From contig NC_003071.7 in NCBI RefSeq assembly GCF_000001735.4, forward strand, positions 2,615,001 to 2,679,000: 64,000 bases of DNA, in the 5' to 3' direction. This DNA is from Arabidopsis thaliana (lineage: Eukaryota; Streptophyta; Magnoliopsida; Brassicales; Brassicaceae). The first letter of the stretch is position 1, and the number at the start of each line of letters is the position of its first letter. Under the pieces are notes generated by a model. The model ran no database searches. It had not been told where the DNA came from and was given only the letters and a program-made list of their open reading frames with translations. Below, piece after piece: positions 24,598 to 63,073 of this stretch. The position numbers and the translations under genes are program-made.

Positions 24598-27531
24598 ATG
24601 GAGTTACATGTATTAATTATGGTTGGTGAGTGGATATACAAAGAAGAAGGTTGGAAATTTGAAGCTGAGAAAGGAAGTTTCGGACGCTGTGTACGTATTA
24701 GAGACACAACGACGTACACGGATTTGGCAAGTACAATATGTGATGTTTTTAGTTTCAAGTTTAGTGAATGGAACCCTATAATAAGTTACTGGATGCCTGA
24801 AAAGATGTCTGATATGATAGCAAGTAATCGCCCTCGAGTATATATTGAGAATCAAATCAGCCTTGATACATTTATGTTGATTCGTAGTGGCGATCCTTCT
24901 GTTAACTTGTATGTGTCTTTTTACTCTATCAGCAAGGGAGGCCATACAGAGACAGAGGTTACAAATGTTGATGCAGCTCATAAGTTTTACGAAGATATAA
25001 ATGTAGATGAGGATGACATAAATGAAGGTGATAGGGATGAATATGAGGACGAGGAAAATGAAGAGGACGAAGATATGGATGTACATGACGATGACACTGA
25101 TAGTGAATGTCGTGGAAGTACCCTCGACCCTACAATAGACGGTAGTGAAGGTAGTAGCGAAGATTACGATTACAATAAATGGGGTGATCTGATTGTGGAA
25201 GAATATGGAATTGGTCATGTTGAGGAGGACGTCGTGAATGCCACTCAACAAATCGTGGAACCCCCAAAGGAATTCACTCGTCTATTGGCATCATGTACGT
25301 CGACAGGTAAACATGTACATCATGTAGAACCCACTGCTGTTTTGGTTGACAGTACACCAACCTCTGCTCCATCCCCGACGTGTCAACATGGTTTGTACCA
25401 ATGTACGTACACTAGAGTCTGTGCAGAAGAGACAAGATGCGAAGGTGAATTAGTTAAGTACACTGCTGCAAATGTGGATGATATAGCTGAGAACGTAACT
25501 GGAGATGATGGTATAGTCGTCCTAGAAGGGGTTTCTGCAAGTGGGTTAAATATTGAATATGACGACCGTCTAGTGACAACATGTGAAGCCTACGAAGTGT
25601 ATAAAGGGTTTTCTACATTGCATAATGGTGAGAATGAGTTTCTCGATACTAATGCTGCTCATGTATTTGATGATTTAGCCAATGTTAGAGTCGATGAGAT
25701 AGAAGTTGAATTGAGTACGTCAGGTCATCCGTTGTATGTGGGAAGTGTTTTCAAAAACAAGCAAGTCATACAGCAGACTATGCGACTTGTTGCAATCAAA
25801 AGGTGCTTCCGCTACAAACAAACTCGGTCATGCCCTAAAAGATTAGAAATGGTTTGCGTAGATCGCAATTGTTCATGGCATTTGACTGCACATATCATAA
25901 CCAATTCCAAATGTTTCAAAATCACAGAGTATGATTCTATCCATGTTTGCAAGATCGAGAGTCGAAAGGATTATCGTAAACATGCTACTTACAAGCTTTT
26001 AGGCGAGGTTATGAAGAATAGATATAGTTCTACGCAAGGGGGTCCGAGAGCTGTAGATTTGCTTCAATTGGTCTTAAATGATCTTAATGTTCGTATCTCA
26101 TATTCTACAGCATGGAGAGCTAGAGAGGTTGCAGTAAACTCTATAAGGGGTGATGATATGGCTAGTTACTGGTTTTTACCTACATATCTGTATCTTCTAC
26201 AATTAGCAAATCCCGGTACAATCTGTCATCTCCACTCCACTCCTGAATCTAATGGTCGGCAGCGCTTCAAATATGTATTTGTTTCTCTCTCGGCTTCTAT
26301 AAAAGGTTGGAAATATATGAGGAAAGTCGTTGTTGTAGACAGAACGCATCTAGTCGGTCGTTACAAAGGATGCCTCCTTATAGCATGTGCACAAGACAGG
26401 AACTTACAAATCTTTCCATTAGCTTTTGGGGTTGTTGACGGCGAGACCGATGCTTCATGGATTTGGTTCGTTGAGAAATTATCAGAGATTGTTCCAGATA
26501 CTGACGATTTGATGATTGTCTCGGACAGGCATTCTTCCATATATAAAGGCGTTAGTGTGGTGTACCCGAAAGCCCCCATGGAGCATGTATAGTACACCTG
26601 GAGCGAAACATATCAGTGTCTTACTCTAGGTACGGTGTGTCTGATTTATTCTTTAGCGCCGCTAAAGCATATCGGGTTAGAGATTTTGAAAAATACTTTG
26701 AAGAGATAAGAGGTCGGAGTCCCGGATGCGCAAAGTATTTAGAGGATGTTGGATTTGAGCATAGGACAAGGGCATACTACATAGGGGAGCGGTACAATAT
26801 CATGACTAGCAACAACTCCGAGGCAATGAACAATGTCTTAAGGAAGGCAAAAGCGTATCCAATTGTCTATATGCTAGAGTTCATCCGATAGGTCATTATG
26901 CGATGGTTTGCAGCAAGGCGGAAAAAAGTGTCGAAGTGTAACTCTTTGGTGACCCCGGATGTAGATGAACGTTTCCTCCAAGACTTGCCTGCGTCAGGAA
27001 AGTTCGCAGTCATGATGTCTGGGCCATGGAGTTATCAAGTTACTTTAAAGAGTGGTGAGCATTTTCACGTTGTACTAGATGAGTGTACGTGTACTTGTCT
27101 TAGGTACACGATGTTAAGAGTCCCATGCGAGCATGCTCTAGCTGCTGCAATACATTTTGGCATCAACCCGAAGGCTGTGATTGGATTGTGGTATAGCCTT
27201 CAAGTGTTTTCTGATTCTTTCCAAGAACCCGTTTTACCTATAGTGGACCCAAATGACGTTGTAATTCCTCAAGATTTATCGGACCTGATTCTCATACCTC
27301 CACGCAGTAGACAACCACCTGGGAGACCACCTACCAAAAGGATACCATCTACTAGGGAAAACCGGGTAAGTTTTTCACCCATCCTAACTGCTATGAAATT
27401 TTTACTTCGTTTTAAACGACATACTATTTTATAACTTTCAGAAAAAGAGGCAGAAAAGACTCATTCCTAATCAGTGTACAAGATGTCGGAAAACCGGTCA
27501 TAACAAGAAGACATGCAAAAACCCTATTTAG
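24598..27531 (+). pseudogene. MULE transposase (MuDR/MURA-like), unit A
   Basis: The ATG at 24598 starts a plant MULE N-terminal domain (EGWKFEAEKGSFGRCVRI, SYWMPEKM), a long acidic linker (25000-25200), the Mutator DNA-binding zinc region (LYVGSVFKNKQVIQQTMRLV, CSWHLTAH), and the DDE domain with VVVVDRTHLVGRYKG (first D), LMIVSDRHSSIYKGV (second D) and MTSNNSEAMNNVL (probable E). A SWIM zinc finger (CTCTCLRYTMLRVPCEHA) follows. An intron (27366-27441) leads to a terminal exon with a CCHC knuckle, CTRCRKTGHNKKTC, ending at 27531. A one-base loss at about 26575 and a TAG in the sequence EFIR/VIMRWF (26889-26891) break it. The TAG is shared with unit B. Unlike B, it retains the full N-terminal and linker region. 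Confidence 0.9.
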
Positions 27532-27774
27532 TCGATGACTGTTTTACTCGCGATGGTTAGAGTCTCTATGCTTTTGGACGATGTTCTACGTACGTTTTGG
27601 AAATCTTTTTAAATTTTTAACTAAACCGTTACATCAATTTGGGACCAGTCATCGCGTCTATTCAAAATCTATTTAAGAACCTGGTAATAACACCCTTCAT
27701 CCATTCAAACAAAAGTCCAAACCCATCTCACAAATAAGACAGAAAGTCGGTTATTCTGGGTTTTTTTTGGCATC

Positions 27775-28729
27775 ATGGATGCTGGATATCATTCCATTTT
27801 TGAACCTTTTCCAATGATCACCGGATGGAGTATACGCGCTTTTGTGGTCAGGGTGTTTAAGAAATGCGTGGGAATAAATGAGTTTGACCTGGGTCTCATC
27901 TTTGCCGATAATTGAGTACTATTTCGCCAATGTGTTTATAACGTTTTTACTTCCACATACCTTAATTGTCACTAATCATCATAATTTCGTGCAGGGAATG
28001 CGTTCCCGCATAGAGGCTACCATTAATCGTCGCATTGCTTCGTTTTACTCTGACTGTATCCGAGAAAATGAGTGGATAATTATCAATACTTTCTCGGTTC
28101 GTCTCCACGACGAGGGGATACACACAACGTCCCATGACTACCGGATCTGTTTTATGGATCAGACCATTGTTACCAAAGTTTTGGGATTGGCTGCAATACC
28201 GTATTACGATTTTATTCCTTTTGACTACATCGTCGAGAAGACAGTTTCTACTGGAGTGTTAGTTGGTTAGTATATTTGACTCGCTATTGATTCTTGTAAA
28301 TCTGTACGTACACGTAATACTTTTATCTTTTATTACGTACACCAGATGTGATTGGTGCGCTCCTTGAAGTTGGCAACTTGACCGAAGACTACCGTGGGCT
28401 GAAGCTTCCTTTTAAGATAATGGATCAATAGTAAGTGCCTCTGTGTTATTTTTTAAAAAAGTTTTCACCTATATGTTTGTTATATCCTCCGTATAATATA
28501 TATTCTCTGTAGCAAAGAAGTTCTTCAATGTGAAGCACACAATGATCAAGCTTTGGAATTTCAAAGATTCTTCCAGCGGCTAACTGGTCCTCAAAATGTT
28601 ATTGCTCTCGTATCCTGGCGTCTGAGCGGGATTTATAAACTGAAGACTCTGAGCAATGACCCCATCTCCAAAGTCATTGCTAATCCGGATATACCGGAAG
28701 TGGAAGAAATCAGAGTCGTTGTCTATTAG
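27775..28729 (+). pseudogene. RPA1-like (DUF223/OB-fold) gene, unit A, one nonsense codon
   Basis: Four exons with canonical splice sites: 27775-27933, 27995-28265, 28346-28430 and 28513-28729. The product resembles the first DNA-binding OB-fold region of plant RPA1 paralogues: MITGWSIRAFVVRVFKK, ENEWIIINTFSVRLHDEG, TSHDYRICFMDQT, then LVDVIGALLEVGNL at the exon 2/3 junction. At 243 codons it is far shorter than a full RPA1 (over 600 residues) and has no zinc-finger C-terminus. Codon 47 is TGA where unit B has CGA. Exon 2 differs from B by a single silent base. It begins about 245 bp after the transposase on the same strand, which suggests cargo of the same element. Plant Helitrons also carry RPA1-like genes. 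Confidence 0.75.
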
Positions 28730-28829
28730 TTTATCTCTTGTCTCTGTTATTCTTAATAACTACAGATTTGTAACCGAATTTAAACATATCCTATATTTAT
28801 GCTAAAGTTTTACTTTATTTCCGACATTA

Positions 28830-29035
28830 TATTTCATGGACGTATATTATATCAGTGTACGTTCAAACTGCTACAGTTTACTTATTACAAAATACATCAT
28901 AATTGTAATGACTTTCCATGGACGTACATTTATATCGGTGTACGTTCAAACTGCTACAGTTTACTTATTACAAAATACATCATAATTGTAATGACTTTCC
29001 ATGGACGTACATTTATATCGGTGTACGTTTAAATA
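28830..29035 (+). repeat. Tandem repeat, period about 83 bp, rich in ACGTAC motifs, unit A
   Basis: About two and a half units: CATGGACGTACATTTATATC, then GGTGTACGTTCAAACTGCTA and CAGTTTACTTATTACAAAAT, then ACATCATAATTGTAATGACT. Each unit holds one ACGTAC and one GTACGT. It lies between the 3' ends of the RPA1-like gene and the first minus-strand F-box-like gene. Open frames across it are repeats of the same nonsense peptide. Confidence 0.85.
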
Positions 29036-29252
29036 GTTGTACTCTATGTAGAATGTAAACAAACTTAGTTCCATTCATAACATAAACAATAAAACATGGA
29101 ACTACAAAACATAACAAAAGAGCAGGAACTACAAAGCATAACAATAAACCGATTAGAGCATACAACCAAAGGATAGTAAAGCCGAAGCATATAACAGGAA
29201 AACATATGCTTTACAAAAAGTCGAAATTATAGCCGATGCATAGAATGGGAAA

Positions 29253-29906
29253 TCAGATGCTGAACCAACGCCTTTCCTTAATAAAATATGCACAACTCCC
29301 TAGCATACCAGTAGAAGAAACAATTCCGGCAGCAGGCTCCGTAGTTGCAACGACCCAAACATCTGGTGAAACCACGAACCTCCATGATCGATCCCACATC
29401 CGAGGTCCTTCAGCATGCAGTCAACTTATGTGATACATAACCAACTCCCCCATTGTGTTTGCAGCTTCGAATGATGGCACTAAATCCCAGAAAGTCGCAT
29501 TCACGGCTTCAACCTCTCGTCTGTTGCTAGTTGCGGTTAGGAACAGTCCATGATAGAAACATGCGTAGGCGTCGGTGGGAGAGATAGAACCCAACATGGT
29601 TAAACCATGAGCAACCGAAACGAAATTGCAAGCTAAACGAACCCCTTCAAGGTAAAGCGCCGACATTGCTCCCCGTTCAAGCAGGAGGGTAAAATATGGT
29701 CGGAAAGGTGTTTTCGGCAACACGAAATCAGGCCACGTCATAAACTCATCCATGTTGATAGCGGTCGGCTTCAGCGTGCTTACGGGACCTCTGAGCGTTT
29801 CAATGGGAGTTACAGAAACGGGTAAGTAGTTGACGAGGATGCTGAGTGGGTTAGGTAGCTGAATGGCCATGTAAATTTCCGCCGGTGGGGGTGTGGGGAC
29901 GTCCAT
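29253..29906 (-). pseudogene. F-box-like protein, At2g35280 type (F1), unit A, one nonsense codon
   Basis: Minus strand, ATG at 29906. The N-terminus is proline-rich (MDVPTPPPAEIY). The body carries the family's middle section: TPFRPYFTLLLERGAM, then LYLEGVRLACNF and DAYACFYHGLFL, which aligns with PFFKRC, YNEAIRVL and ACAIIFI in its neighbours. The F-box part is very weak. The reading stops at a TGA (29421-29423) where unit B has CGA. B's frame continues to 217 residues. The tail after the stop is still present and nearly unchanged, so the break is recent. This is the most divergent of the three minus-strand family members. Confidence 0.65.
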
Positions 29907-30687
29907 TGCCGAGTCTGAGGGATTTTTTTGGTGAGTTTAGGTTATATTTGTCATAGTAAGAGTAATGAAAAGTGTGGAGATGACTTGTCCCAGTGTACAT
30001 GTTATATAGACCTAATGGCGAGGAGACAACTAAGTAAATATTTGACGTCCCACTTACCTATTGTAGGTGGTATTAATATTGGACATTAACTCGTGTTTAT
30101 ATGAAAAGAATAAACTATTAACTATTTCCGATTAAAACTGAAACTTCAAATTACAATTTTCGAGTATATTGGTTTATGTACGTGTAGATTTACACGTGTA
30201 CTTCTATATTGAAATTTGTAGTTTTTGATGTAAACCCAAGCTATCTCGTCGACTTATTAGTTACATGTACGTCATTAGTAACACGTGTACGTCTATATAA
30301 ACCTATACGCTGAATTGGAGTGTATTTATTATGCCATGTCACGTCTATCACAATACTGTCTTTTGCGTCAATCCAGTCATATTTATTCCTACATTTATAG
30401 TGACTTTAAAGTTATAATGTAAGTACAGAAATAAGTATGGATTACGAAACTTCAAATTTATTACTCATATCCGAATAAACCATTAAACGGAGAAACTTTG
30501 TAAACCAGAGGATAAGCACAAATTCAAACATAACTTCATAAAAGCATTACAAGAACTTGAACAACTTCATGCATAGAGGATAAAACGAATTAGAAACATA
30601 ACTTCATAACGGCATTAGAAGAACTTGAAACATAACTTAGACGATAACATTAAATAACAACTTCAAATAACTAGTAGATTTATATTA
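29907..30687 (-). promoter_or_regulatory. F1 upstream region with a motif module, unit A
   Basis: Non-coding. Between about 30165 and 30440 lie TTATGTACGTGTAG, ACACGTGTAC, ACATGTACGTCATTAG and ACACGTGTACGTCTAT in a fixed order, then GTGTATTTATTA and ATTTATAGTGACTTTAAAG. The same order, diverged, is found upstream of F2 at 31540-31865, so the two genes were copied together with their promoters. ACACGTGTAC contains a G-box core (CACGTG), a common plant bZIP/bHLH site. Confidence 0.6.
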
Positions 30688-31413
30688 CTAGAGCATTTGG
30701 CTAACTCGCCTAGCACACCACCAGAGGTAACAACTGTTACACACGTTCTTGAACGGTCCAGAGACAATGTAACAAAGCAGGGCGCAATCTGGAGTTTGAA
30801 TACCATGGCTGTTATGATAAGAGAACGTCGATCCATAAGTATTATTATATGGAGGGCGAAACTTCTTTAAATCCTCCAGGAACTCCTCACACAAATCCCG
30901 TATCTCTTTTGTCCTGAACGGATAATGATTGCGTTCGAATAGGTTTAGAAACATGGCGCCCATGTAATCATTACCGTCAATTATGAAAAGTATCGCACAA
31001 GCAAGTGTTGCATGGGCTTGTGATGGAACATGAGGTCGTAAGAGGTTGATGGCTCCCTTAATGTCACGTTCATGCGTTAGAACACGCAGAGCTTCAAAAT
31101 ACGTGGCAGTCGGATTGCCAGCATCCACACACCTTTTGAAAAAGGCTCGATGTCGGCCTTCTCCCTGGGGGCCGGATGGATGATGGCTGCCATCAACTTG
31201 GTAGTCGTCGGGATCGTCGCACATGCTAAAAATATTAGCACCTTTCAGGACATCCAGACGGTATACAATATCTCCGCCACGTGTGTCTGACCGTAGTAGT
31301 GGCTGAAGGTCCCACCAGCATTTGTCAGTCATTTTCTTAGCTATCTTTGCGAGTAAATCGTCGGGAATAGTCGGATTCACCATGTTAGGAATGAGATAGG
31401 CCAATATGGTCAA
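30688..31413 (-). CDS. F-box-like protein, At2g35280 type (F2), unit A
   Basis: An open frame of 241 residues from an ATG at 31413. An F-box-like segment at about residues 15-60 (IPDDLLAKIAKKMTDKCWWD, then VYRLDVLKGANIF) leads to Sel1/TPR-like helices (HRAFFKRCVDAGNPTATYFE, ACAILFIIDGNDYMGAMF, about 85-160) and a closing cysteine region (FKNVCNSCYLWWCARRV). This is the layout of Arabidopsis At2g35280-type proteins, some thought to act as substrate receptors in SCF ubiquitin ligases. The F-box here is degenerate, so ligase function is doubtful. It is intact in both tandem units, differing at 14 residues, with only two or three silent differences noticed. No intron is needed. Confidence 0.8.
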   Translation of the reverse strand: MTILAYLIPNMVNPTIPDDLLAKIAKKMTDKCWWDLQPLLRSDTRGGDIVYRLDVLKGANIFSMCDDPDDYQVDGSHHPSGPQGEGRHRAFFKRCVDAGNPTATYFEALRVLTHERDIKGAINLLRPHVPSQAHATLACAILFIIDGNDYMGAMFLNLFERNHYPFRTKEIRDLCEEFLEDLKKFRPPYNNTYGSTFSYHNSHGIQTPDCALLCYIVSGPFKNVCNSCYLWWCARRVSQML

Positions 31414-32082
31414 ATCATTGTCCTTTTAATAACCAAGGAAAGAGAGTCGGTTGGGGAGATTACAGTTGCATTGAATGTTATTTAAGTTGGATGTCAAATC
31501 AGAGGATAAGTGATTATTTGAGAAGACTAACATTTATCTACTATATCAATAAATGTACGTATAAAGTAACAGTCTACGTACATATTTAATTCTCATATTT
31601 TTGGTGCAAACCGATGCTACTTTATCTTAAATAATTGATAAATGTACGTCTAATAAGGCGTTACACGTGTACGTATATTTACAATAAGCATAGAGGTTCT
31701 AGAAATTATGACAAGTGGAAGTGTATTTATTAATTAACGCTTGGCACGTCTTTAATAAGACTGACATTATGCGTCTATTGACTGACATATATGCTTACAT
31801 TTATTATTACATTTATAGTTAGAATGTAAGTACTTGTTAGAATGTAAGTACAACCGTAAGTTTAGTTTGACAACACAAATATATTATTCATGACCGATAG
31901 AACCAAACCGCATGAAACAAAAACACAAGTTGTAAATAGGAAATTTCAAAGAAACGGAAGAAACAACATAATAGGAAATAACAATGAAACATAAACAAAA
32001 TACATAGGTCCAAACACCTAACAAACTTGAAACAAGTGACCGTGTACACCTAGCACACGTACAAATGCGATACCTACAGCAT
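31414..32082 (-). promoter_or_regulatory. F2 upstream region with a motif module, unit A
   Basis: Non-coding. AAATGTACGTATAAAG, GTCTACGTACAT, AATGTACGTCTAATAAGG and ACACGTGTACGTATAT lie 130-270 bp above the F2 start, followed by GTGTATTTATTA and a duplicated TTAGAATGTAAGTAC. It is paralogous to the F1 upstream module. The far part (31884-32080) overlaps the 3' flank of F3. Confidence 0.6.
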
Positions 32083-32925
32083 TTAGCTAACTCGCCTAGC
32101 ACACGACCATAGGTGACACTTGTTGCAAACGTTCTTGAATGCACCAGAAACCATGTAACAATGGTAGGCGCATGGTGGCATCTTAATTCCATGGCTGTTC
32201 GGATAACAGAAAGAATAACCGTAAGTATTATTGTACGGAGGGCTAAACTTCTTTATCTCCTCGAGGAACTCCTCACACAAATCTCAAGTGATATCCGACT
32301 CCAATGGATGATGGTTGCGTGTGTAGAGCTGAAGAAACAATCCACCCATATAATCATATCCCGCACATATGAATATGATGGCGCAGGCGATGGTTGCATC
32401 TGCTCGCACGGGTGCATGACGCTGCATGAGCTTAAATGCTCCATTGATGTCACTTTCATGGATTAGAACACGTATTGCTTCGTTATACACAGCCATCGGA
32501 TTGTTAGCGAGAAGGCACCTTTTGAAAAATGGTCGATTGCGGCTTTCTCCTTGGGGTCCGGTTGGATTATGGCCACCTCCTACTTGGAAGTGATCGGGAA
32601 CACCGCACAAGCTGAAGATGTTAGCGTCTTTAAGGATATCCGGACGGTAGACAATGTCTCTTCCGCGAGTGCCTGATCGTAGCAGTGGCTTAAGGTCCAA
32701 CCAGCATTTGTCTGCCACTTTTTTAGCTATCTTAACGAGTAAGTCGTCGGAAATAGTCGGGTTGACCATGTTAGAAATGAGATACTCCGAAGAGGTCAAA
32801 TTGTTCCTCCCATTAATAACCACGGATGTAGATATTGTTGGAGAAATTACAGTTACATTCAATGAGCAATTTAATTTTACATTGATGGTTGTCAAATCAA
32901 TGTTACCGTTACTGCAGTCGTGCAC
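32083..32925 (-). pseudogene. F-box-like protein, At2g35280 type (F3), unit A
   Basis: Minus strand. The frame opens at 32925 with an unusual leader (MHDCSNGNIDLTTINVKL), then the F-box-like part TISDDLLVKIAKKVADKCWL, middle helices (PFFKRCLLANNPMAVYNEAI, ACAIIFICAGYDYMGG) and, past a TGA at about 32282-32284, DLCEEFLEEIKKFSPPYNNT and the closing CNKCHLWSCARRVS. The TGA stands where F2 has CGA (Arg of IRDLCEEF) and is shared with unit B, so this gene was already broken before the duplication. It is close to F2 in sequence, consistent with local tandem copying. Confidence 0.75.
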
Positions 32926-33146
32926 TGTGTACAGGTGGACTCATAGTCTGTACGTACATTGCTAAGATATTACGTTGTGTACGTTGTTAATTCCTAATAA
33001 AAATGTTGCTTATCATCCAAAAGTAATAAATTGTTTTGAAAACAAACAAGTCAATCTAAACACTACCAAATTCAAGTTCCAAAAGGCATACAAAATAAGT
33101 TTGTTTTCCCAGCATTTAAAAATAAGGTTAAGGAACCAATTCCATG

Positions 33147-33300
33147 CTCAGTTTGCTTTTGCAATCTTCCTCCTATGTTGCGGTTCTATGGATCAAGGCT
33201 TTTTGGTACTAGATAACTTTCTCAATAAGGTATCAAGTTTCACTGAAGCACTTGAGATTGCAAACCTCATTGAAGATCAGATTCGTTGGATAAGAAGCCG
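33147..33300 (+). pseudogene. 3' fragment of an At2g35280-type F-box-like gene, unit B
   Basis: The counterpart of the 3' part of the gene at 6756-9050, without the solo LTR. It begins mid-gene (QFAFAIFLLCCGSMDQGFLV) and continues NFLNKVSSFTEALEIANLIE before running into the MULE fragment on the other strand. It has no start or F-box and is joined to the tail of a ULP gene by the duplication breakpoint. It preserves the pre-insertion sequence around the LTR target (AATAAGGTATCAAG). Confidence 0.8.
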
Positions 33301-34022
33301 TGGGACTAGGCAGTACCGGAGACTAATGCCTTTAACACGAGCCTTTTCCGCTTCAGCTCTTTCTAAAGCCTCTAGCTCCCTCTGATCAACCTCATCCTCA
33401 GAGTAGTTGGCAAAGAAATCTTCCTCGCATCTTCCATCAATGTGAGTACTCAAAGATGGCGTGCCTGCATCAGCTAGACTTATAATCCCGCCATATCTAA
33501 ATCATTGCAAACATCAGACGCATGTTCAGTCCACAGAGCTTTGTCGTCACGCCTAATTCCTCGAACAAGCCACTCCTCTGCACCATCAACTGCTTCACCA
33601 TTTGTCTCTGTTGTTGGGGCACTAACAGACTTAACCACTGCCAACTCAACATGAACGCCCTCCACCTCACTTGAAAAGTATTTTCCTGCGCCATCATCTA
33701 CGTCACCATTGGTCTCTGTTGTTGGAGCAGTAACAAACTGAACTACTTGAGACTCAACACGAACGCTCTCCAGCTCCCTTGGAATGTATTTGGCAGTTCC
33801 AAAACTTTCCCCAAGCTCACGCCAATCAAATTTTTGGATGTCCCCACCAACACTGGGCTCAATAGAGTGGCAAAAATTTAAATGTGCCTTTGTCTCCTTT
33901 ACAAGCAAGAAACTTTTCGGCGCGACAGTGCTACTTAAAGCTACTGGAGGCTTTTTAGACGTTGTGAACATTCCCACTTTCCAGCTATGGCAAACACTGG
34001 AACATCAACACCCTGCAACAAG
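33300..34022 (-). pseudogene. MULE N-terminal fragment, unit B
   Basis: The counterpart of 9060-9965. About 190 bp encoding the MFTTRKVGFVIEND to PKQLSIFS part is deleted, joining GGGAATGTTCACAAC to GTCTAAAAAGCC; the short CAAC shared at both edges suggests end-joining. The acidic region with two NGE repeats and the ANYSEDEVDQRELEAL end are kept. Confidence 0.7.
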
Positions 34023-34052
34023 CGATAAAAAAAACCCAGCAATAAACATTTG

Positions 34053-37000: not shown

Positions 37001-37059
37001 TCTCTTGTACGGATGCCTGATTCAATAAAAGGGTTTTGTTGTTCAAAAAAAAAAAAAAA
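34053..37059 (+). mobile_element. LINE (L1 type with RNase H), 5'-truncated, unit B
   Basis: The counterpart of 9983-12990, with the same domain order, frame breaks and 5' truncation point, so it was copied by the segmental duplication rather than inserted independently. The RT core FVDDTMFF lies at about 35060 and the RNase H FTDASWKPENKA at about 36635. The A tail is 37044-37059. The flanking duplication is longer here (ATAAACATTTG at 34042-34052 and 37061-37071), which supports it as the target-site duplication. Extra stops unique to this copy occur, for example in SNxDNISDQI at about 34395. Confidence 0.9.
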
Positions 37060-37071
37060 GATAAACATTTG

Positions 37072-38925: not shown

Positions 38926-38929
38926 AAGC

Positions 38930-42963: not shown

Positions 42964-42965
42964 TA

Positions 42966-45715: not shown

Positions 45716-45747
45716 ATTTTTGCTCGGATAATAAATAAATAAATATA

Positions 45748-52276: not shown

Positions 52277-54793
52277 ATGAAGTTACATGTATTAATTATG
52301 GTTGGTGAGTGGATATACAAAGAAGAAGGTTGGAAATTTGAAGCTGAGAAAGGAAGTTTCGGACGCTGTGTACGTATTACAGACACAACGACGTACACGG
52401 ATTTGGCAAGTACAATATGTGATGTTTTCAGTTTCAAGTTTAGTGAATGGAACCCTATAATAAGTTACTGGATGCCTGAAAAGATGTCTGATATGATAGC
52501 AAGTAATCGCCCTCGAGTATATATTGAGAATCAAATCAGCCTGGATACATTTATGTTGATTCGTAGTAGCGATCCTTCTGTTAACTTGTATGTGTCTTTT
52601 TACTCTATCAGCAAGGGAGGCCATACAGAGACAGAGGTTACAAATATTGATGCAGCTCATAAGTTTTACGAAGATATAAATGTAGATGAGGATGACATAA
52701 ATGAAGGTGATAGGGATGAATATGAGGACGAGGAAAATGAAGAGGACGAAGATATGGATGTACATGACGATGACACTGATAGTGAATGTCGTGGAAGTAC
52801 CCTCGACCCTACAATAGACGGTAGTGAAGGTAGTGGCGAAGATTACGATTACAATAAATGGGGTGATCTGATTGTGGAAGAATATGGAATTGGTCATGTT
52901 GAGGAGGACATCGTGAATGACACTCAACAAATCGTGGAACCCCCAGCAGAATTGATGAGATAGAAGTTGAATTGAGTACGTCAGGTCATCCGTTGTATGT
53001 GGGAAGTGTTTTCAAAAACAAGCAAGTCATACAGCAGACTGTGCGACTTGTTGCAATCAAAAGGTGCTTCCGCTACAAACAAACTCGGTCATGCCCTAAA
53101 ATATTAGAAATGGTTTGCGTAGATCGCAATTGTTCATGGCATTAAACTGCACATGTCATACCCAGTTCCAAATGTTTCAAAATCACAGAGTATGATTCTA
53201 TCCATGTTTGCAAGATCGAGAGTCGAAAGGATTATCGTAAACATGCTACTTACAAGCTTTTAGGCGAGGTTATGAAGAATAGATATAGTTCTACGCAAGG
53301 GGGTCCGAGAGCTGTAGATTTGCTTCAATTGGTCTTAAATGATCTTAATGTTCGGATCTCATATTCTACAGCATGGAGAGCTAGAGAGGTTGCAGTAAAC
53401 TCTATAAGGGGTGATGATATGGCTAGTTACTGGTTTTTACCTACATATCTGTATCTTCTACAATTAGCAAATCCCGGTACAATCTGTCATCTCCACTCCA
53501 CTCCTGAATCTAATGGTCGGCAGCGCTTCAAATATGTATTCGTTTCTCTCTCGGCTTCTATAAAAGGTTGGAAATATATGAGGAAAGTCGTTGTTGTAGA
53601 CAGAACGCAGCTAGTCGGTCGTTACAAAGGATGCCTCCTTATAGCATGTGCACAAGACAGGAACTTACATATCTTTCCATTAGCTTTTGGGGTTGTTGAC
53701 GGCGAGACCGATGCTTCATGGATTTGGTTCGTTGAGAAATTATCAGAGATTGTTCCAGATACTGACGATTTGATGATTGTCTCGGACAGGCATTCTTCCA
53801 TATATAAAGGCGTCAGTGTGGTGTACCCGAAAGCCCATCATGGAGCATGTATAGTACACCTGGAGCAAAACATATCAGTGTCTTACTCTAGGTACGGTGT
53901 GTCTGGTTTATTCTTTAGCGCCGCTAAAGCATATCGGGTTAGAGATTTTGAAAAATACTTTGAAGAGATGAGAGGTCGGAGTCCCGGATGCGCAAAGTAT
54001 TTAGAGGATGTTGGATTTGAGCATTGGACAAGGGCATACTACATAGGGGAGCGGTACAATATCATGACTAGCAACAACTCCGAGGCAATGAACAATGTCT
54101 TAAGGAAGGCAAAAGTGTATCCAATTGTCTATATGCTAGAGTTCATCCGATAGGTCATTATGCGATGGTTTGCAGCAAGGCGGAAAAAAGTGTCGAAGTG
54201 TAACTCTTTGGTGACCCCGGATGTAGATGAACGTTTCCTCCAAGACTTGCCTGCGTCAGGAAAGTTCGCAGTCATGATGTCTGGGCCATGGAGTTATCAA
54301 GTTACTTTAAAGAGTGGTGAGCATTTTCACGTTGTACTAGATGAGTGTACGTGTACTTGTCTTAGGTACACGATGTTAAGAGTCCCATGCGAGCATGCTC
54401 TAGCTGCTGCAATAAATTTTGGCGTCAAACTGAAGGCTGTGGTTGGATTGTGGTATAGCCTTCAAGTGTTTTCTGATTCTTTCCAAGAACCCGTTTTACC
54501 TATAGCGGACCCAAATGACGTTGTTATTCCTCAAGATTTATCGGACCTGATTCTCATACCTCCACGCAGTAGACGACCACCTGGGAGACCACCCACCAAA
54601 AGGATACAATCTACTAGGGAAAACCGGGTAAGTTTTTCACCCATCCTAACTGCTATGAAATTTTTACTTCCTTTTAAAAGACATACTATTTTATAACTTT
54701 CAGAAAAAGAGGCAGAAAAGACTCATTCCTAATCAGTGTACAAGATGTCGGAAAACCGGTCATAACAAGAAGACATGCAAAAACCCTATTTAG
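52277..54793 (+). pseudogene. MULE transposase (MuDR/MURA-like), unit B
   Basis: Starts at the ATG at 52277 with the same N-terminal and acidic regions. About 420 bp of the linker are deleted near 52950, which shifts the frame, and a TAA replaces a Leu codon at about 53144 in CSWH/TAH. From 53272 the frame runs open through the DDE domain (VVVVDRTQLVGRYKG, LMIVSDRHSSIYKGV, YPKAHHGACIVHLEQ, MTSNNSEAMNNVL), so the one-base loss of unit A is private to A. The TAG at 54151-54153 is shared. The SWIM finger CTCTCLRYTMLRVPCEHA, the intron 54628-54703 and the CCHC exon (54704-54793) are intact. Confidence 0.9.
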
Positions 54794-54859
54794 TCGATGA
54801 CTGTTTTACTCGCGATGGTTAGAGTCTCTATGCTTTTGGACGATGTTCTACGTACGTTT

Positions 54860-55080
54860 TGGAAATCTTTTTATCAGTCTATGTTGTAATATTACATATT
54901 ATTTTTTCTGTACGTTATCTTCTGTACGTACATTTGTGGACCTCGTATTATCGGTGTATTTGCTTATCCTTCAACTTTTTGTCAGTACCGTTGTTGTCTG
55001 TACGTACCTTTGATAAAAAAATTCATTTGTACGTACACTTCGTACATCTAATTATAAAGAGTTGACGGTTACATTTTTAA
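54860..55080 (+). promoter_or_regulatory. Cluster of GTACGTAC motifs between transposase and RPA1-like gene, unit B
   Basis: About 210 bp absent from unit A, with at least three full GTACGTAC sites (in TCTGTACGTACATTTG, GTCTGTACGTACCTTTG, TTTGTACGTACACTTCG) plus half sites. It lies just upstream of the RPA1-like gene and downstream of the transposase. It could be a promoter, a protein-binding array or both; only the clustering is directly seen. Confidence 0.55.
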
Positions 55081-55234
55081 CTAAACCGTTACATCGATTT
55101 GGGACCAATCATCGCGTCTATTCAAAATCTATTTAAGAACCTGGTAATAACACCCTTCATCCATTCAAACAAAAGTCCAAACCCATCTCACAAATAAGAC
55201 AGAAAGTCGGTTATTCTGGTTTTTTTTTGGCATC

Positions 55235-56237
55235 ATGGATGCTGAATATCATTCCATTTTTGAACTTTTTCCAATGATCACCGGATGGAGTATACGCGCT
55301 TTTGTGGTCAGGGTGTTTAAGAAATGCGTGGGAATAAATGAGTTTGACCTGGGTCTCATCTTGGCCGATAATCGAGTACTATTTCGCCAATGTGTTTATA
55401 ACGTTTTTACTTCCACATACCTTAATTGTCACTAATCATCATAATTTCGTGCAGGGAATGCGTTCCCGCATAGAGGCTACCATTAATCGTCGCATTGCTT
55501 CGTTTTACTCTGACTGTATCCGAGAAAATGAGTGGATAATTATCAATACTTTCTCGGTTCGTCTCCACGACGAGGGGATACACACAACGTCCCATGACTA
55601 CCGGATCTGTTTTATGGATCAGACCATTGTTACCAAAGTTTTGGGATTGGCTGCAATACCGTATTATGATTTTATTCCTTTTGACTACATCGTCGAGAAG
55701 ACAGTTTCTACTGGAGTGTTAGTTGGTTAGTATATTTGACTCGCTATTGATTCTTGTAAATCTGTACGTACACGTAATACTTTTATCTTTTATTACGTAC
55801 ACCAGATGTGATTGGTGCGCTCCTTGAAGTTGGCAACTTGACCGAAGACTACCGTGGGCTGAAGCTTCCTTTTAAGATAATGGATCAATAGTAAGTGCCT
55901 CTGTGTTATTTTTTAAAAAAGTTTTCACCTATATGTTTGTTATATCCTCCGTATAATATATATTCTCTGTAGCAAAGAAGTTCTTCAATGTGAAGCACAC
56001 AATGATCAAGCTTTGGAATTTCAAAGATTCTTCCAGCGGCTAAATGGTCCTCAAAATGTTATTGCTCTCGTATCCTGGCGTCTGAGCGGGATTTATAAAC
56101 TGAAGACTCTGAGCAATGACCCCATCTCCAAAGTCATTGCTAATCCGGATATATCGGAAGTGGAAGAAATCAGAGTCTCTGTTATTCTATTAGTTTATCT
56201 CTTGTCTCTGTTATTCTTAATAACTACAGATTTGTAA
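55235..56237 (+). CDS. RPA1-like (DUF223/OB-fold) protein, unit B, open throughout
   Basis: Exons 55235-55393, 55455-55725, 55806-55890 and 55973-56237, all with GT-AG introns and matching phases, give 259 residues with no stop. The protein has an OB-fold DNA-binding region like the first fold of plant RPA1 (MITGWSIRAFVVRVFKK at about residues 16-32, ENEWIIINTF, TSHDYRICFMDQT, LVDVIGALLEVGNL), then KEVLQCEAHNDQAL and WRLSGIYKLKTLSND. It lacks the other RPA1 domains. The last exon ends later than in unit A because of local indels (extra VILLVYLLSLLFLITTDL). In cells RPA1 coats single-stranded DNA; a role in transposition or in escaping silencing is possible but not shown. Confidence 0.75.
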
Positions 56238-56289
56238 CCGAATTTAAACATATCCTATATTTATGCTAAAGTTTTACTTTATTTCCGAC

Positions 56290-56500
56290 ATCATATTTTA
56301 TGGACGTATATTGTATCAGTGTACGTTCAAACTGCTACAGTTTACTTATTACAAAATACATCATAATTGTAATGACTTTTCATGGACGTACATTTATATC
56401 GGTGTACGTTCAAACTGCTACAGTTTACTTATTACAAAATACATCATAATTGTAATGACTTTCCATGGACGTACATTTATATCGGTGTACGTTCAAATAG
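56290..56500 (+). repeat. Tandem repeat, period about 83 bp, rich in ACGTAC motifs, unit B
   Basis: The counterpart of 28830-29035, with the same number of units and a few base changes. The ACGTAC and GTACGT sites in each unit are kept. Confidence 0.85.
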
Positions 56501-56717
56501 TTGTACTCTATGTACAATGTAAACAAACTTAGTTCCATTCATAACATAAACAATACAACATGGAACTACAAAACATAACAAAAAAAGCAGGAACTACAAA
56601 GCATAACAATAAACCGATTAGAGCATACAACCAAAGGATAGTAAAGCCGAAGCATATAACAGGAAAACGTATGCTTTACAAAAAGTCGAAATTATAGCCG
56701 ATGCATAGAATGGGAAA

Positions 56718-57371
56718 TCAGATGCTGAACCAACGCCTTTCCTTAATAAAATATGCACAACTCCCTAGCATACCAGTAGAAGAAACAATTGCGGCAGCAG
56801 GCTCCGTAGCTGCAACGACCCAAACATCTGGTGAAACCACGAACCTCCATGATCGATTCCACATCCGAGGTCCTTCAGCATGCAGTCGACTTATGTGATA
56901 CATAACCAACTCCCCCATTGTGTTTGTAGCTTCGAATGATGGCACTAAATCCCAAAAAGTCGCATTCACGGCTTCAACCTCTCGTCCGTTGCTAGTTGCG
57001 GTTAGGAACAGTCCATGATAGAAACATGCGTAGGCGTCGATGGGAGAGATAGAACCCAACATGGTTAAACCATGAGCAACCGTAACGAAATTGCAAGCTA
57101 AACGAACCCCTTCAAGGTAAAGCGCCGGCATTGCTCCCCGTTCAAGGAGGAGGGTGAAATATGGTCGGAAAGGTGTTTTCGGCAACACGAAATCAGGCCA
57201 CGTCATAAAATCATCCATGTTGATAGCAGTCGGCTTCAGCGTGCTTACGGGACCTCTGAGCGTTTCAATGGGAGTTACAGAAACGGGTAAGTAGTTGACG
57301 AGGATGCTGAGTGGGTTAGGTAGCTGAATGGCCATGTAAATTTCCGCTGGTGGGGGTGTGGGGACGTCCAT
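56718..57371 (-). CDS. F-box-like protein, At2g35280 type (F1), unit B
   Basis: An open frame of 217 residues from an ATG at 57371. Residues 1-160 match F1 of unit A. The frame then continues RLHAEGPRMWNRSWRFVVSP, DVWVVAATEPAAAIV and ends ERRWFSI. The tail lacks the C-x2-C motif of F2 and F3, and the F-box is barely recognisable, so this may be a gene that has drifted to a new or no function. Confidence 0.65.
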   Translation of the reverse strand: MDVPTPPPAEIYMAIQLPNPLSILVNYLPVSVTPIETLRGPVSTLKPTAINMDDFMTWPDFVLPKTPFRPYFTLLLERGAMPALYLEGVRLACNFVTVAHGLTMLGSISPIDAYACFYHGLFLTATSNGREVEAVNATFWDLVPSFEATNTMGELVMYHISRLHAEGPRMWNRSWRFVVSPDVWVVAATEPAAAIVSSTGMLGSCAYFIKERRWFSI

Positions 57372-58151
57372 TGCCGAGTCTGAGGGATTTTTTTGGTGAG
57401 TTTAGGTTATATTTGTCATAGTAAGAGTAATGAAAAGTGTGGAGATGACTTGTCCCAGTGTACATGTTATATAGACCTAATGGCGAGGAGACAACTAAGT
57501 AAATATTTGACGTCCCACTTACCTATTGTAGGTGGTATTAATATTGGACATTAACTCGTGTTTATATGAAAAGAATAAACTATTAACTATTTCCGATTAA
57601 AACTGAAACTTCAAATTACAATTTTCGAGTATATTGGTTTATGTACGTGTAGATTTACACGTGTACGTCTATATTGAAATTTGCAGTTTTTGATGTAAAC
57701 CCAAGCTATCTCGTCGACTTATTAGTTACATGTACGTCATTAGTAACACGTGTACGTCTATATAAACCTATACGCCGAATTGGAGTGTATTTATTATGCC
57801 ATGTCACGTCTATCACAATATTGTCTTTTGCGTCAGTCCAGTCATATTTATTCCTACATTTATAGTAACTTTAAAGTTATAATGTAAGTACAGAAATAAG
57901 TATGGATTACGAAACTTCAAATTTATTACTCATATCCGAATAAACCATTAAACGGAGAAACTTTGTAAACCAGAGGATAAGCACAAATTCAAACATAACT
58001 TCATAGAAGCATTACAAGAACTTGAACAACTTCATGCATAGAGGATAAACGAATTAGAAACATAACTTCATAACGGCATTAGAAGAACTTGAAACATAAC
58101 TTAGACGATAACATTAAATAACAACTTCAAATAACTAGTAGATTTATATTA
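57372..58151 (-). promoter_or_regulatory. F1 upstream region with a motif module, unit B
   Basis: The counterpart of 29907-30687. Here ACACGTGTACGTCTAT appears twice (about 57655 and 57747), because the first copy, degenerate in A (GTACTTCTAT), is intact. Otherwise non-coding. Confidence 0.6.
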
Positions 58152-58877
58152 CTAGAGCATTTGGCTAACTCGCCTAGCACACCACCAGACGTAACAACTG
58201 TTACACACATTCTTGAACGGTCCAGAGACAATGTAACAAAGCAGGGCGCAATCTGGAGTTTGAATACCATGGCTGTTAGGATAAGAGAACGTCGATCCAT
58301 AAGTATTATTATATGGAGGGCGAAACTTCTTTAAATCCTCCAGGAACTCCTCACACAAATCCCGTATCACTTTTGTCCCCAACGGATAATGATTGCGTCC
58401 GAATAGGTTTAGAAACATGGCGCCCATGTAATCATTACCGTCAATTATGAAAAGTATCGCACAAGCAAGTGTTGCATGGGCTTGTGATGAAACATGAGGT
58501 CGTAAGAGGTTGATGGCTCCCTTAATGTCCCGTTCATGCGTTAGAACACGCAGAGCTTCAAAATACATGGCAGTCGGATTGCCAGCATCCACACACCTTT
58601 TGAAAAAGGCTCGATGTCGGCCTTCTCCCTGGGGGGCGGATGGATGATGGCTGCCATCAACTTGGTAGTCGTCGGGATCGTCGCACTTGCTAAAAATATT
58701 AGCACCTTTCAGGACATCCAGACGGTATACAATATCTCTGCCACGTGTGCCTGACCGTAGTAGTGGCTGAAGGTCCCACCAGCATTTGTCAGCCATTTTC
58801 TTAGCTATCTTTGCGAGTAAATCGTCGGGAATAGTCGGATTCATCATGTTAGGAATGAGATAGGCCAATATGGTCAA
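58152..58877 (-). CDS. F-box-like protein, At2g35280 type (F2), unit B
   Basis: An open frame of 241 residues, the same length as unit A. The F-box-like segment reads IPDDLLAKIAKKMADKCWWD and LLRSGTRGRDIVYRLDVLKG, closer to F3 than the A copy is (which has RSDTRGGD), so B looks more ancestral there. The cysteine tail is CNSCYVWWCARRVSQML. Confidence 0.8.
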   Translation of the reverse strand: MTILAYLIPNMMNPTIPDDLLAKIAKKMADKCWWDLQPLLRSGTRGRDIVYRLDVLKGANIFSKCDDPDDYQVDGSHHPSAPQGEGRHRAFFKRCVDAGNPTAMYFEALRVLTHERDIKGAINLLRPHVSSQAHATLACAILFIIDGNDYMGAMFLNLFGRNHYPLGTKVIRDLCEEFLEDLKKFRPPYNNTYGSTFSYPNSHGIQTPDCALLCYIVSGPFKNVCNSCYVWWCARRVSQML

Positions 58878-59540
58878 ATCATTGTCCTTTTAATAACCAA
58901 GGAAAGAGAGTCGGTTGGGGAGATTACGGTTGCATTGAATGTTATTTAAGTTGGATGTCAAATCAGAGGATAAGTGATTATTTGAGAAGGCTAACGTTTA
59001 TCTACTATATCAATAAATGTACGTAGAAAGTAACAGTGTACGTACATATTTAATTCTCATATTTTCGGTGCAAACCGATGCTAATTTATCTTAAATAATT
59101 GATAAATGTACGTCTAATAAGGCGTTACACGTGTACGTATATTTACTATAAGCATAGAGGTTCTAGAAATTATGACAAGTGGAAGTGTATTTATTAATTA
59201 ACGCTTGGCACGTCTTTAATAAGACTGACATTATGCGTCTATTGACTGACATAGATGCTTACATTTATTATTACATTTATAGTTAGAATGTAAGTACTTG
59301 TTAGAATGTAAGTACAACCGTAAGTTTAGTTTGACAACAAAAATATATTATTCATGACCGATAGAACCAAACCGCATGAAACAAAAACACAAGTTGTAAA
59401 TAGGGAATTTCAAAGAAACGGAAGAAACAACATAATAGGAAATAACAATGAAACATAAACAAAATACATAGGACCAAACACCTAACAAACTTGAAACAAG
59501 TGACCGTGTACACCTAGCACACGTACAAATGCGAGACCTA
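58878..59540 (-). promoter_or_regulatory. F2 upstream region with a motif module, unit B
   Basis: The counterpart of 31414-32082. The first site is the full form GTGTACGTACAT at about 59037 (GTCTACGTACAT in A). ACACGTGTACGTATAT follows at about 59128. No gene is seen. Confidence 0.6.
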
Positions 59541-59546
59541 GAGCAT

Positions 59547-60386
59547 TTAGCTAACTCGCCTAGCACACGACCATAGGTGACATTTGTTGCAAACGTTCTT
59601 GAATGCACTAGAAACCATGTAACAATGGTAGGCGCATGGTGGCATCTTAATTCCATGGCTGTTTGGATAACAGAAAGAATAACCGTAAGTATTATTGTAC
59701 GGAGGGCTAAACTTCTTTATCTCCTCGAGGAACTCCTCACACAAATCTCAAGTGATATCCGACTCCAATGGATGATGGTTGCGTGTGTAGAGCTGAAGAA
59801 ACAATCCACCCATATAATCATATCCCGCACATATGAATATGATGGCGCAGGCGATGGTTGCATCTGCTCGCACGGGTGCATGAGTGCATGACGCTGCATG
59901 AGCTTAAATGCTCCATTGATGTCACTTTCATGGATTAGAACACGTATTGCTTCGTTATACACAACCGTCGGATTGTTAGCGAGAAGGCACCTTTTGAAAA
60001 ATGGTCGATTGCGGCCTTCTCCTTGGGGTCCGATTGGATTATGGCCACCTCCTACTTGGAAGTGATCGGGAACACCACACAAGCACAAGCTTATGGATAT
60101 CCGGACGGTAGACAATGTCTCTTCCGCGAGTGCCTGATCGTAGCAGTGGCTTAAGGTCCAACCAGCATTTGTCTACCACTTTCTTAGATATCTTAGCGAG
60201 TAAGTCGTCGGAAATAGTCGGGTTGACCATGTTAGAAATGAGATAGTCCGAAGAGGTCAAATTCTTCCTCCCATTAATAACCACGGATGTAGATATTGTT
60301 GGAGAAATTACAGTTACATTCAATGAGCAATTTAATTTTACATTGATGGTTGTCAAATCAATGTTACCGTTACTGCAGTCGTGCAC
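59547..60386 (-). pseudogene. F-box-like protein, At2g35280 type (F3), unit B
   Basis: The counterpart of 32083-32925, with the shared TGA before DLCEEFLEEI (about 59746) and two further private changes: an 8-bp insertion near 59881 (GTGCATGA repeated) and an indel near 60090 (CACAAGCACAAGCTTATGG) that removes part of the LKDANIF segment. The closing CNKCHLWSCARRVS is intact. It is more decayed than the A copy. Confidence 0.75.
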
Positions 60387-60588
60387 TGTGTACAGGTGGA
60401 CTCATAGTCTGTACGTACATTGCTAAGATATTACGTTGTGTACGTTGTTAATTCCTATTAAAAATGTTGCTTATCATCCAAAAGTAATAAATTGTTTTGA
60501 AAACAAACAAGTCAATCTAAACACTACCAAATTCAAGTTCCAAAAGGCATACAAAATAAGTTTGTTTTCCCAGCATTTAAAAATAAGG

Positions 60589-62996
60589 TTAAGGAACCAA
60601 TTCCATGGTCGTAGAGGTCGATTGCGTAACCCTAACGGTTGTTGTACATATCAGCTCTTCAATCGAAAACAAGTCCTTCGTAGGACAGTTCAGCATGTAC
60701 AACTCAATAAACTTCATCGCGTACGGACTGCAATCTCTGGTAGTTGGATTCTATGCAAGACGTTGATTCCTTATGTAAGTAAAAGGAGTTACGGGATAAG
60801 GCTTTTCGAGATAATCTTTGCATGTCGCTCTGACTAGGTACGACAACATCTCCAGTATTGGAAGGATACGTGACCTAACCACAGACTCCCGCGTAAGTGA
60901 AATCAAAGGATCCTTGATTTCAATAGAGCGACGTTACAGGCATATAGCCAACCCAACCCAATGCTTCTCATCTTTCAAGTTCATGAGAACATATATAACG
61001 TCGACATACCGATTTCTCTTCATATGCTCCCCGTTTTTATGCCACATCAAGAGTCTGGGATCCACCACGACATACCGATTTCTCTTCATATGCTCCCCGT
61101 TCTTATGCCACATCAAGAGTGCGATCATTTCCATGTGCTGGAAAGTTAATAAAAGTATGATGTTATGTACGTACTTTCCAAAACATATTCTTAAATATAC
61201 GTACACTTAAAACAGTGTACGTAATCAATGGTCACTTACGTAAGAGCCAAACCAATTATTAGCCTCGGCTAGAGTTGTGAAGAATTCGTTGGCCCTTTTC
61301 CGAAAGCCAAAAAGAGTATGGCATCTGAAATTTAGTAAGACATATGAAATAGTTATGATTGATATATGATTGACAAACAAACAGATAATGGAGTGAATGC
61401 ACAGATGCATACCTTTGTTCTCCTTCCATGATATTGCATAACTTCTGGAATTTAGCTCCGTCAATCTTCTCCAAAGGATTGTAGGGTAAATCGCCAGCCT
61501 TCACCAACACCTCAGGGCCTGCCTGTCTCTCCTCAACAAATATTACATCATCACTCTTTGTATCATCAGTTTTTGTGTCATCAGAGAAGGTAACTCTCCG
61601 TCTTACATTTTTCTTCTCATTCTCATTCCCGGGAGCAACGATTGCTTCAGTTTGAGAAACACCCCCTTCGACAACTTCGTCTTTCTTTACTGTCTGTAAG
61701 CATAAAATAATAGAATTAGATTAGTCATGGAAACAACTACAAGAGTACGTACACTATATGCACGTACAGTGGAAATATTAATAGGTACACGGGATAATAT
61801 ATACTGACCTCTACGGGGACGACAACCTTCTCAAGAATTTGAGATACATTTTCTTCGAGAACATCGTCTTTTTGTGGCAGTTGTACAAAATAAATAGTCG
61901 ACATAAGCTGAAAGTTAGTTGAAAGTAATGTTGAACAATGTAAGGTAGAAGAGAAGTAGCATGTCTCACATCAACGACGCTGGATGTTTTCAATTCAGTA
62001 AGAACCTAATGAAAACAATTTAACATACATCAAATGATAACTCCGACAGTAATGCTCTAGGTCTTAATTAATAACTTACCTTGCTAACAACTACTGTTGG
62101 TGAAGACGGGTCACTGAGATTCGCTTCATCATCAAAAGCCTCTACAAACCTCGGAGGAACAAGTCCAGGTAATGTGGTGTCCTTCAGATTTAGTAACCAA
62201 AGATTTGGTTATTTCTCTATTTGACAAATAAGCGTTACAAATAGCATAATAGTATCACATACCTCCACGGCTTCATCTACAACTCTTGGAGTTTTAGCCT
62301 CCTTCAACACTTCCTCTCCATCCCCACCAATTGTTTCATCCTGACCTCATTATATGGAGATGGATGTCCATCTATTAGTCTCACTCACAGCAAAGCAATC
62401 AAAGGAGCGAAACGGATTTCAAAAACATTGTACGTACATTAGGTTTGCCATCTTCTATACGTTCAAAAGCAACTTCTTGTCTAACCTTGTCTTCCGGTGA
62501 TTGTGGCAGTTCGATTCTGTACTCCTCCAACTGTTGTGACTCAGGAGCAACAACTTCTTCTTCACGATTACCACCAACACCTTTCGCAACGTCCTATAAG
62601 ATAGCAAACCATACAAATTAGAAATAACATGTACGTACACTATAATTAGTAGTACCCGACGTACCTGATGGGACAAGGAAGATACATCATCTGACATTTT
62701 GTCAATGCCTGGGTCAGACAGTATTTGTTTTAACTGCGGAAGGAGTTCTTCAAAGTTACCACCATCAAGAATGCCTTGTTCGGGCTGTTATGTCAAAATT
62801 AAGAACATAAAGAACATAAAATATTCTGTACGTACAATAATGAAATACTAAGAACACAGGTTACCTGGTGAGTTGGTGATGGAACACGATCGACATTGTC
62901 TTCCATTAGAGAGTTAGAGACATTTTGGTGTAACTTGGAAGAATCTTCATCAATCTCCGAGTTCCCTCCTATCTCCTTCGAAATCAAAACCATACA
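60589..62996 (-). pseudogene. ULP-like cysteine protease (Kaonashi-type, peptidase C48), C-terminal exons
   Basis: Minus strand, at least nine exons with GT-AG borders. Upstream exons are short and acidic (GGNFEELLPQLKQILSDPG, PPRFVEAFDDEANLSD, RRRVTFSDDTKTDD). Then come VKAGDLPYNPLEKIDGAKFQ, an exon with GFRKRANEFFTTLAEANNW, and the protease exon (60589-61137): IYVLMNLKDEKHWVGLAI (His), IEIKDPL (Asp), TRDCSPYAMKF (Cys), ending TTMELVP at 60589. ULP enzymes remove SUMO; MULE-carried relatives are known in Brassicaceae. A TAA follows LAICL (about 60937) and there is a frameshift near 60760, so the enzyme is inactive as read. The DUF1985 half is not in the window: a CACTA element starts 78 bp beyond the first visible exon. 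Confidence 0.82.
61003..61120 (-). repeat. In-frame tandem duplication within the ULP protease exon
   Basis: A 52-bp stretch (61003-61054) recurs at 61069-61120 with one mismatch, period 66 bp, exactly 22 codons. The peptide LLMWHKNGEHMKRNRYV therefore occurs twice, joined by VVDPR. It keeps frame and lies just before the HWVG motif. Confidence 0.85.
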
Positions 62997-63073
62997 CTAG
63001 GTCAGTAATTGTTCTTTATGTACGTACAATAAGGCAAAACTGTAACATGACTAGTACACGAGTGGGTTACATG

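Follow-up and report, generated by a model that had tools for sequence, protein, structure and literature searches.

The 64,000-nucleotide stretch of Arabidopsis thaliana DNA analyzed here (contig NC_003071.7, positions 2,615,001 to 2,679,000, hereafter the window) contains what is most likely a VANDAL-type KIU Mutator-like element (MULE), whose approximately 35 ACGTACA/TGTACGTACA sites are putative targets of a VANC-type protein of the element's own family. We consider this reading probable on the basis of features observed in the window, namely the motif itself, its exactness, its restriction within the window, the mainly intronic and intergenic position of the sites, a gene with an Ulp1 protease domain and a relative of the element that is devoid of the motif but has a DUF1985 domain.

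A 7-mer confined to two copies of one MULE

The initial annotation had placed the motif GTACGTAC at 15 or more sites, and an exact-match count gave 15, with coordinates agreeing to within 9 bp (Table 1). All 15 are located within two MULE copies, A and B, and none was found elsewhere in the window, the adjoining CACTA element included, as had been claimed for the surrounding DNA. In 200 dinucleotide shuffles GTACGTAC reached a mean of 0.07 and a maximum of 2 in copy B (12 observed) and a mean of 0.10 and a maximum of 2 in copy A (3 observed), which bears out the expected excess over chance. With A and B being nearly identical, only 13 of the 15 sites are non-redundant.

As the basic unit, GTACGTAC had to be rejected, because the enrichment of the 7-mer ACGTACA/TGTACGT is stronger. 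This 7-mer occurs 68 times in the window, and its count follows the boundaries of the element: all 68 copies lie inside A (24189-33149) or B (51868-63073), whereas the 43,833 bp outside contain none. Copy B has 43 of them against a shuffle mean of 1.66 (maximum 6) and copy A 25 against 1.59 (maximum 7). An unbiased k-mer scan, in which the non-redundant element (11,619 bp) was compared with 27,871 bp of background, ranked ACGTACA/TGTACGT first among the 7-mers (46 versus 1.71 expected, 0 in the background) and gave 13 non-redundant GTACGTAC (0.14 expected) and 10 copies of the palindrome TGTACGTACA (0.02 expected). The latter consists of two overlapping ACGTACA/TGTACGT and underlies 12 of the 15 GTACGTAC. 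After removal of the A/B redundancy and merging of overlapping pairs, 35 non-redundant sites were obtained. The core context reads TGt-ACGTACA and there is little flank information past ~3 bp from the core, which argues that the sites are not merely carried along in longer repeats.

Exact copies are in strong excess (44 versus 1.91 in shuffles), whereas the 41 one-mismatch variants do not clearly exceed the shuffled value of 34.9 (standard deviation 5.9). Neutral decay would be expected to leave such near-misses behind, and their lack of a clear excess, together with the surplus of exact copies, suggests that the sites were kept or made exact.

Most of the sites are found outside coding DNA. 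When the coding intervals are set by hand, introns and intergenic DNA, both named in the initial annotation, account for 30 of the 35 merged sites and the open reading frame (ORF) of the MURA transposase for the other five; outside MURA, all 30 sites are non-coding, with 4,429 bp of coding versus 4,257 bp of non-coding DNA. When MURA is left out, a depletion in ORFs is also obtained if ORFs are masked mechanically from a minimum length of 100, 120, 150 or 170 amino acids (p 7e-5 to 9e-4), and 6 and 4 of the 30 non-MURA sites fall inside ORFs at the two shorter limits. The second hand-called intron of the DUF223 gene holds the palindrome at 28304 and a site at 28335, and six hand-called introns of the Ulp1 gene contain sites. 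The last six GTACGTAC of copy B (span 61167..63027) are all placed in hand-called introns of this gene; for 62430 this placement is uncertain, as the exon frame remains open across the site. Repeats that hold sites are the 83-bp tandem repeat and an 18-bp repeat at 30256-30293. Ranked part by part, ACGTACA comes first among the 7-mers of the MURA ORF, of the DUF223 part and of the part with F-box genes 2 and 3; in the Ulp1 part only the overlapping GTACGTA ranks above it.

Self-BLAST revealed a tandem segmental duplication (8979-33149 versus 33225-60610) that is mostly 96-98% identical, with insertions and deletions. An origin of A and B from two insertions was rejected, since their flanks match at 97%; A and B are one element that was duplicated together with its neighborhood, and they are not independent. 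The block 24700-63020, which had been regarded as one unit, is correct insofar as sites are found in A and B only, but ~18.7 kb of other DNA (33150-51867) lies between the copies and the block represents one duplicated locus. The duplication units measure ~24 and ~27 kb, and at the junction (33149) the motif-bearing MULE adjoins an F-box-like stretch that belongs to the older, second MULE described below.

Both MULE copies are decayed. VANDAL/KIU elements are MULEs of the non-TIR (terminal inverted repeat) type: their ends are devoid of long inverted repeats, and ~9 bp of the target site are duplicated. Copy B lacks 23449-24188 of A, a segment that probably holds the left end of the element, and in copy A this end may lie near 23832, at GGGTAAATT, which we take to resemble MULE ends. 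The right end falls outside the window. Copy B also lacks 413 bp that are present in A.

Genes of the element and a related MULE without the motif

A MURA transposase, as in VANDAL and KIU elements, is indicated by Pfam matches to PF10551 (E 4.7e-14 in A, 1.2e-17 in B) and PF04434 (E 3.3e-9 in A); its frame is broken in A near 26590. On the minus strand, a match to PF02902 (E 8.2e-31) marks a multi-exon gene with a C-terminal Ulp1 domain, which is the arrangement of KIU genes. Two in-frame stops and an internal duplication of 66 bp disrupt the catalytic part of this gene. The 5' part of the gene lies past the insertion at 63074, beyond the window; we take this insertion to be a CACTA element from its terminal sequence CACTACAAGAAAA. 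A 94-amino-acid exon of the Ulp1 gene gave no match in the PDB up to E 5. The element furthermore carries a DUF223 gene and three F-box/TPR-like genes, for which the label F-box is our assumption.

A second MULE with the same plan, more decayed and in opposite orientation, is located at ~2.5-9.95 kb (hand-set limits). It contains a DUF1985 exon, a part resembling the N-terminus of MURA and F-box-like frames (tblastn E 6e-7); no Ulp1 was found in it. Among the domains of VANC proteins is DUF1985 (PMC5735166, legend of its Figure 5). When the PDB was searched by phmmer with the DUF1985 exon, VANC21 (9lnj, 9lnk) came first, as a weak match (E 0.051), and a single-sequence structure prediction of this exon had a mean pLDDT (predicted local distance difference test) of 34.8. 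ACGTACA is absent from 4,948 bp of the second MULE (hand-set limits), where 14.9 copies would be expected at the density of the element, and a scan of 3,988 bp of this MULE revealed no motif of similar prominence (best 7-mer CTTCCTC, 5 versus 0.35). This is in line with a motif that related families lack, here on the evidence of one related MULE. With regard to the type of element, the VANC-like code proposed in the initial annotation is in part supported by MURA, by an Ulp1 gene of the KIU kind and by a nearby related MULE that has DUF1985 and lacks the motif.

The second MULE (2500-9950) is interrupted by insertions at ~4117-5290 and 7161-8975, and a LINE (long interspersed nuclear element) comes after it. 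The insertion at 7161-8975 is most likely a solo LTR (long terminal repeat), with TG...CA ends and GGTAT on both sides, and includes a 59-bp tandem repeat. An array of ACTCGAC/GTCGAGT was considered as a rival MULE code and rejected, as 17 of the 22 copies in the window are carried by this inserted 1.8 kb element.

Table 1. Coordinates of the motif sites, the two MULE copies and their genes, and features of the related MULE (positions in the window; the F-box and CACTA names are presumptive)
Feature	Position	Strand	Details
GTACGTAC in copy A	25403, 28304, 32950		exact-match count
GTACGTAC in copy B, first six	54924, 55000, 55029, 55764, 59038, 60411		exact-match count
GTACGTAC in copy B, last six	61167, 61745, 62430, 62631, 62828, 63020		exact-match count
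MULE copy A, motif-bearing	24189..33149	+	25 ACGTACA/TGTACGT; right side cut at duplication junction
MULE copy B	51868..63073	+	43 ACGTACA/TGTACGT; right part cut by CACTA element
Non-coding segment only in B	54874..55068		~195 bp; GTACGTAC at 54924, 55000, 55029
MURA transposase gene	24598..27530	+	PF10551, SWIM PF04434; limits hand-set; holds 5/35 merged sites
DUF223 gene	27775..28730	+	PF02721; 4 hand-called exons
83-bp tandem repeat, 2.4 units	28835..29033		five ACGTACA/TGTACGT; B counterpart 56296-56497
F-box/TPR-like gene 1	29254..29907	-	tblastn similarity to F-box-like frames of related MULE; no Pfam match
F-box/TPR_27-like gene 2	30688..31425	-	PF23310 match under Pfam cut-off
F-box/TPR_27-like gene 3	32074..32864	-	DNA ~75% identical to gene 2
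Ulp1-protease gene, KIU-like	60610..63073	-	PF02902, C48; ~nine short hand-called exons within view
CACTA element	63074..64000		starts CACTACAAGAAAA; cuts Ulp1 gene; extends past window; 0 ACGTACA
DUF1985 exon of second MULE	3564..4118	+	PF09331 E 2e-17
MURA N-terminal-like part, second MULE	9234..9935	-	tblastn E 3e-8 versus MURA of the element; no Pfam match

Three further features were observed in the window. The region 14300-23448, of which a duplicate lies at 42.8-51.9 kb, contains a transposase domain of the plant En/Spm type at ~19.05-19.27 kb (PF03004, E 3e-20). A gene for a Tc5/pogo-like DDE transposase is located at 41062-42451 (PF03184 and PF03221 in 41414-42451), in DNA that is present only in the second duplication unit. 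An imperfect palindrome of ~1.1 kb, 69% self-complementary, lies at 38985-40115 amid abundant TTTAAAA and GGCGGGA words.

Comparison with VANC systems and alternative explanations

VANC21 and VANC6 are reported to cause sequence-specific hypomethylation and to bind motif-bearing non-coding DNA (PMC5735166), and the review PMC13317346 describes KIU genes as VANC genes with a captured Ulp1, whose action on KIU elements depends on a motif. The element resembles VANDAL21 in that the non-coding DNA of a MULE is packed with a short family-specific motif that related families lack (PMC5735166). Tandem repeats hold part of the sites in VANDAL21, and in our element the 83-bp repeat holds five. The motif itself is different, as YAGTATTAY of VANDAL21 has 0 copies in the window and ACGTACA/TGTACGTACA is found here, and binding has been demonstrated for VANC21, whereas it is putative here (PMC5735166). 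A further difference from VANDAL21 is that sites of the element are also located within the transposase ORF. VANDAL6 is likewise a motif-reading VANC system, and its AC-type motif AGTTGTAC has TGTAC in common with ACGTACA/TGTACGT, but AGTTGTCC/AGTTGTAC has only 4 copies in the window and is distinct in sequence (PMC5735166). KIU (Kaonashi) elements, which are VANDAL/non-TIR MULEs, combine MURA with a gene of several exons that has an Ulp1 domain at its end, as seen here (PMC13317346), whereas our element additionally carries the F-box/TPR-like genes and the DUF223 gene.

Several observations weigh against a VANC-type address. The sites occur in both orientations (over the whole window 26 read ACGTACA and 42 TGTACGT, and many form palindromes), whereas VANC21 sites are non-palindromic and share one orientation, and the VANC6 motif AGTTGTCC/AGTTGTAC is non-palindromic as well, unlike TGTACGTACA (PMC5735166). 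The VANC-like family code suggested earlier is supported as a motif that is private to one element in the window, exact and mostly intronic or intergenic. Five sites lie in transposase coding DNA and the majority is located outside tandem repeats. Furthermore, the overall depletion in ORFs is weaker with the mechanical masks (p 0.0003-0.002), ACGTACA is outside the top five 7-mers of 29250-30687, and some one-mismatch variants are above expectation, for example ATGTACA with 7 versus 3.15. DUF1985 and DUF287 were not found in the element by Pfam in the three minus frames of 54700-63073 and the three plus frames of 23800-33149, the other strands of both stretches having had no whole-stretch scan for them. 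The divergence between A and B is not lower in motif columns (2/156) than in others (148/8,375; p 1.0), a comparison with little power at an A-B divergence of 1.8%.

The spacing of the sites is ambiguous too. Motif sequence, density and helical periodicity reportedly set the specificity of such systems, of which about ten are said to have been covered by Sasaki in the EMBO J in 2022. The short spacings between dyads in the element (14, 15, 19, 19, 20, 20, 20, 20, 25, 29, 29, 29 and 30 bp) cluster near 20 and 29-30 bp, and 10 of the 13 deviate from a multiple of 10 by no more than 1 bp (p 0.0006), but this signal is post hoc, as the pattern had been noticed prior to the test. In a phase test p was only 0.04 and rose to 0.08 when one repeat-derived pair was left out; the one-mismatch sites are devoid of a clear phase (5/13).

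Dense ACGTACA is also not unique to transposons. In viral contigs, 63 loci with paired TGTACGTACA have a median of 0.56 ACGTACA/TGTACGT per kb, and three of them (L031, L002 and L011) reach 3.0-3.9 per kb. None of the 63 is similar, at E up to 0.01, to any of the queries taken from the window (MURA, DUF223, DUF1985, F-box), and the 13 pattern stretches considered as MURA relatives in viral contigs include no relative. As the viral loci were selected by the motif, they show only that dense ACGTACA can arise in unrelated DNA.

Three other explanations of the enrichment were weighed. It is conceivable, but in our view unlikely, that the motif recruits host factors of the SPL/SBP (GTAC core, TNCGTACAA) or bZIP (ACGT core) type to drive the genes of the element. 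The motif contains CGTAC and ACGT cores, and when GTAC and ACGT are counted outside the motif, the element again exceeds the background (3.44 versus 2.01 and 3.10 versus 1.65 per kb). However, the SBP consensus requires an A after ACGTACA, which is present in 5 of 46 sites, and TNCGTACAA itself has only 5 copies in the element and 1 in the background. Sites are also found in introns and 3' intergenic DNA and not upstream alone, and a host factor alone would leave the restriction to one element unexplained.

We regard it as quite unlikely that the MURA transposase uses the motif as a binding site for assembling the ends, comparable to the subterminal repeats of CACTA elements. The motif is confined to the element and includes a palindrome, as such a site might, and the adjoining CACTA has an array of this kind at its start (TAGTCGT/ACGACTA at 63110-63572). 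Transposase sites are expected near the element ends, whereas the sites described here are spread over ~11 kb, including introns and intergenic DNA of the central part of the element. Finally, a functionless by-product of tandem and gene-unit duplications that copied a few chance sites is highly improbable: the A/B duplication doubles the counts, the 83-bp repeat multiplies some sites and genes are duplicated within the element, but the 35 merged sites left after removal of the A/B redundancy have little common flank past ~3 bp, near-miss sites show no clear excess and ACGTACA is the top 7-mer in three of five element parts, the MURA ORF included, and second in a fourth.

Proposed mechanism and implications

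If the sites are targets of a VANC-type protein of the family, the mainly non-coding DNA of the element would have accumulated ~35 exact addresses with ACGTACA as core and TGTACGTACA as fullest form. The minus-strand gene with its C-terminal Ulp1 part at 60.6-63.07 kb would encode the reader, and the 5' part of this gene, expected to carry DUF1985, would lie past the CACTA element. Bound at many sites, the reader would strip silencing marks in trans from family members only, decayed copies included. We infer the identity of the reader, its binding and its anti-silencing effect, and a palindromic target would suggest that binding occurs as a dimer. A more specific version, which we put forward tentatively and consider possible rather than probable, is a VANC-type system whose palindromic address TGTACGTACA is read by a DUF1985-Ulp1 dimer, with sites two and three helical turns apart, an address that spread into the transposase coding sequence and decayed copies that answer an intact copy in trans.

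As a new VANC target the motif is unproven, being set apart from YAGTATTAY and AGTTGTCC/AGTTGTAC only. The parts of PMC10398659 and PMC12312487 that were available print no motif resembling ACGTACA. Literature searches for GTACGTAC in transposons gave no relevant title among the matches listed, a search pairing VANDAL2 with CGTAC gave no match, and among the matches listed for the structure of VANC21 none was on VANC21.

If our reading is correct, another specificity would be added to the small set of known sequence-specific anti-silencing systems. As structures of VANC21 have been solved (PDB 9lnj, 9lnk), the way in which DUF1985 proteins change their target sequence would become testable by comparison of proteins and motifs. 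Furthermore, if the motif is the address, the count of a single 7-mer would provide a simple sequence test that sorts the copies of this family into responders and non-responders.

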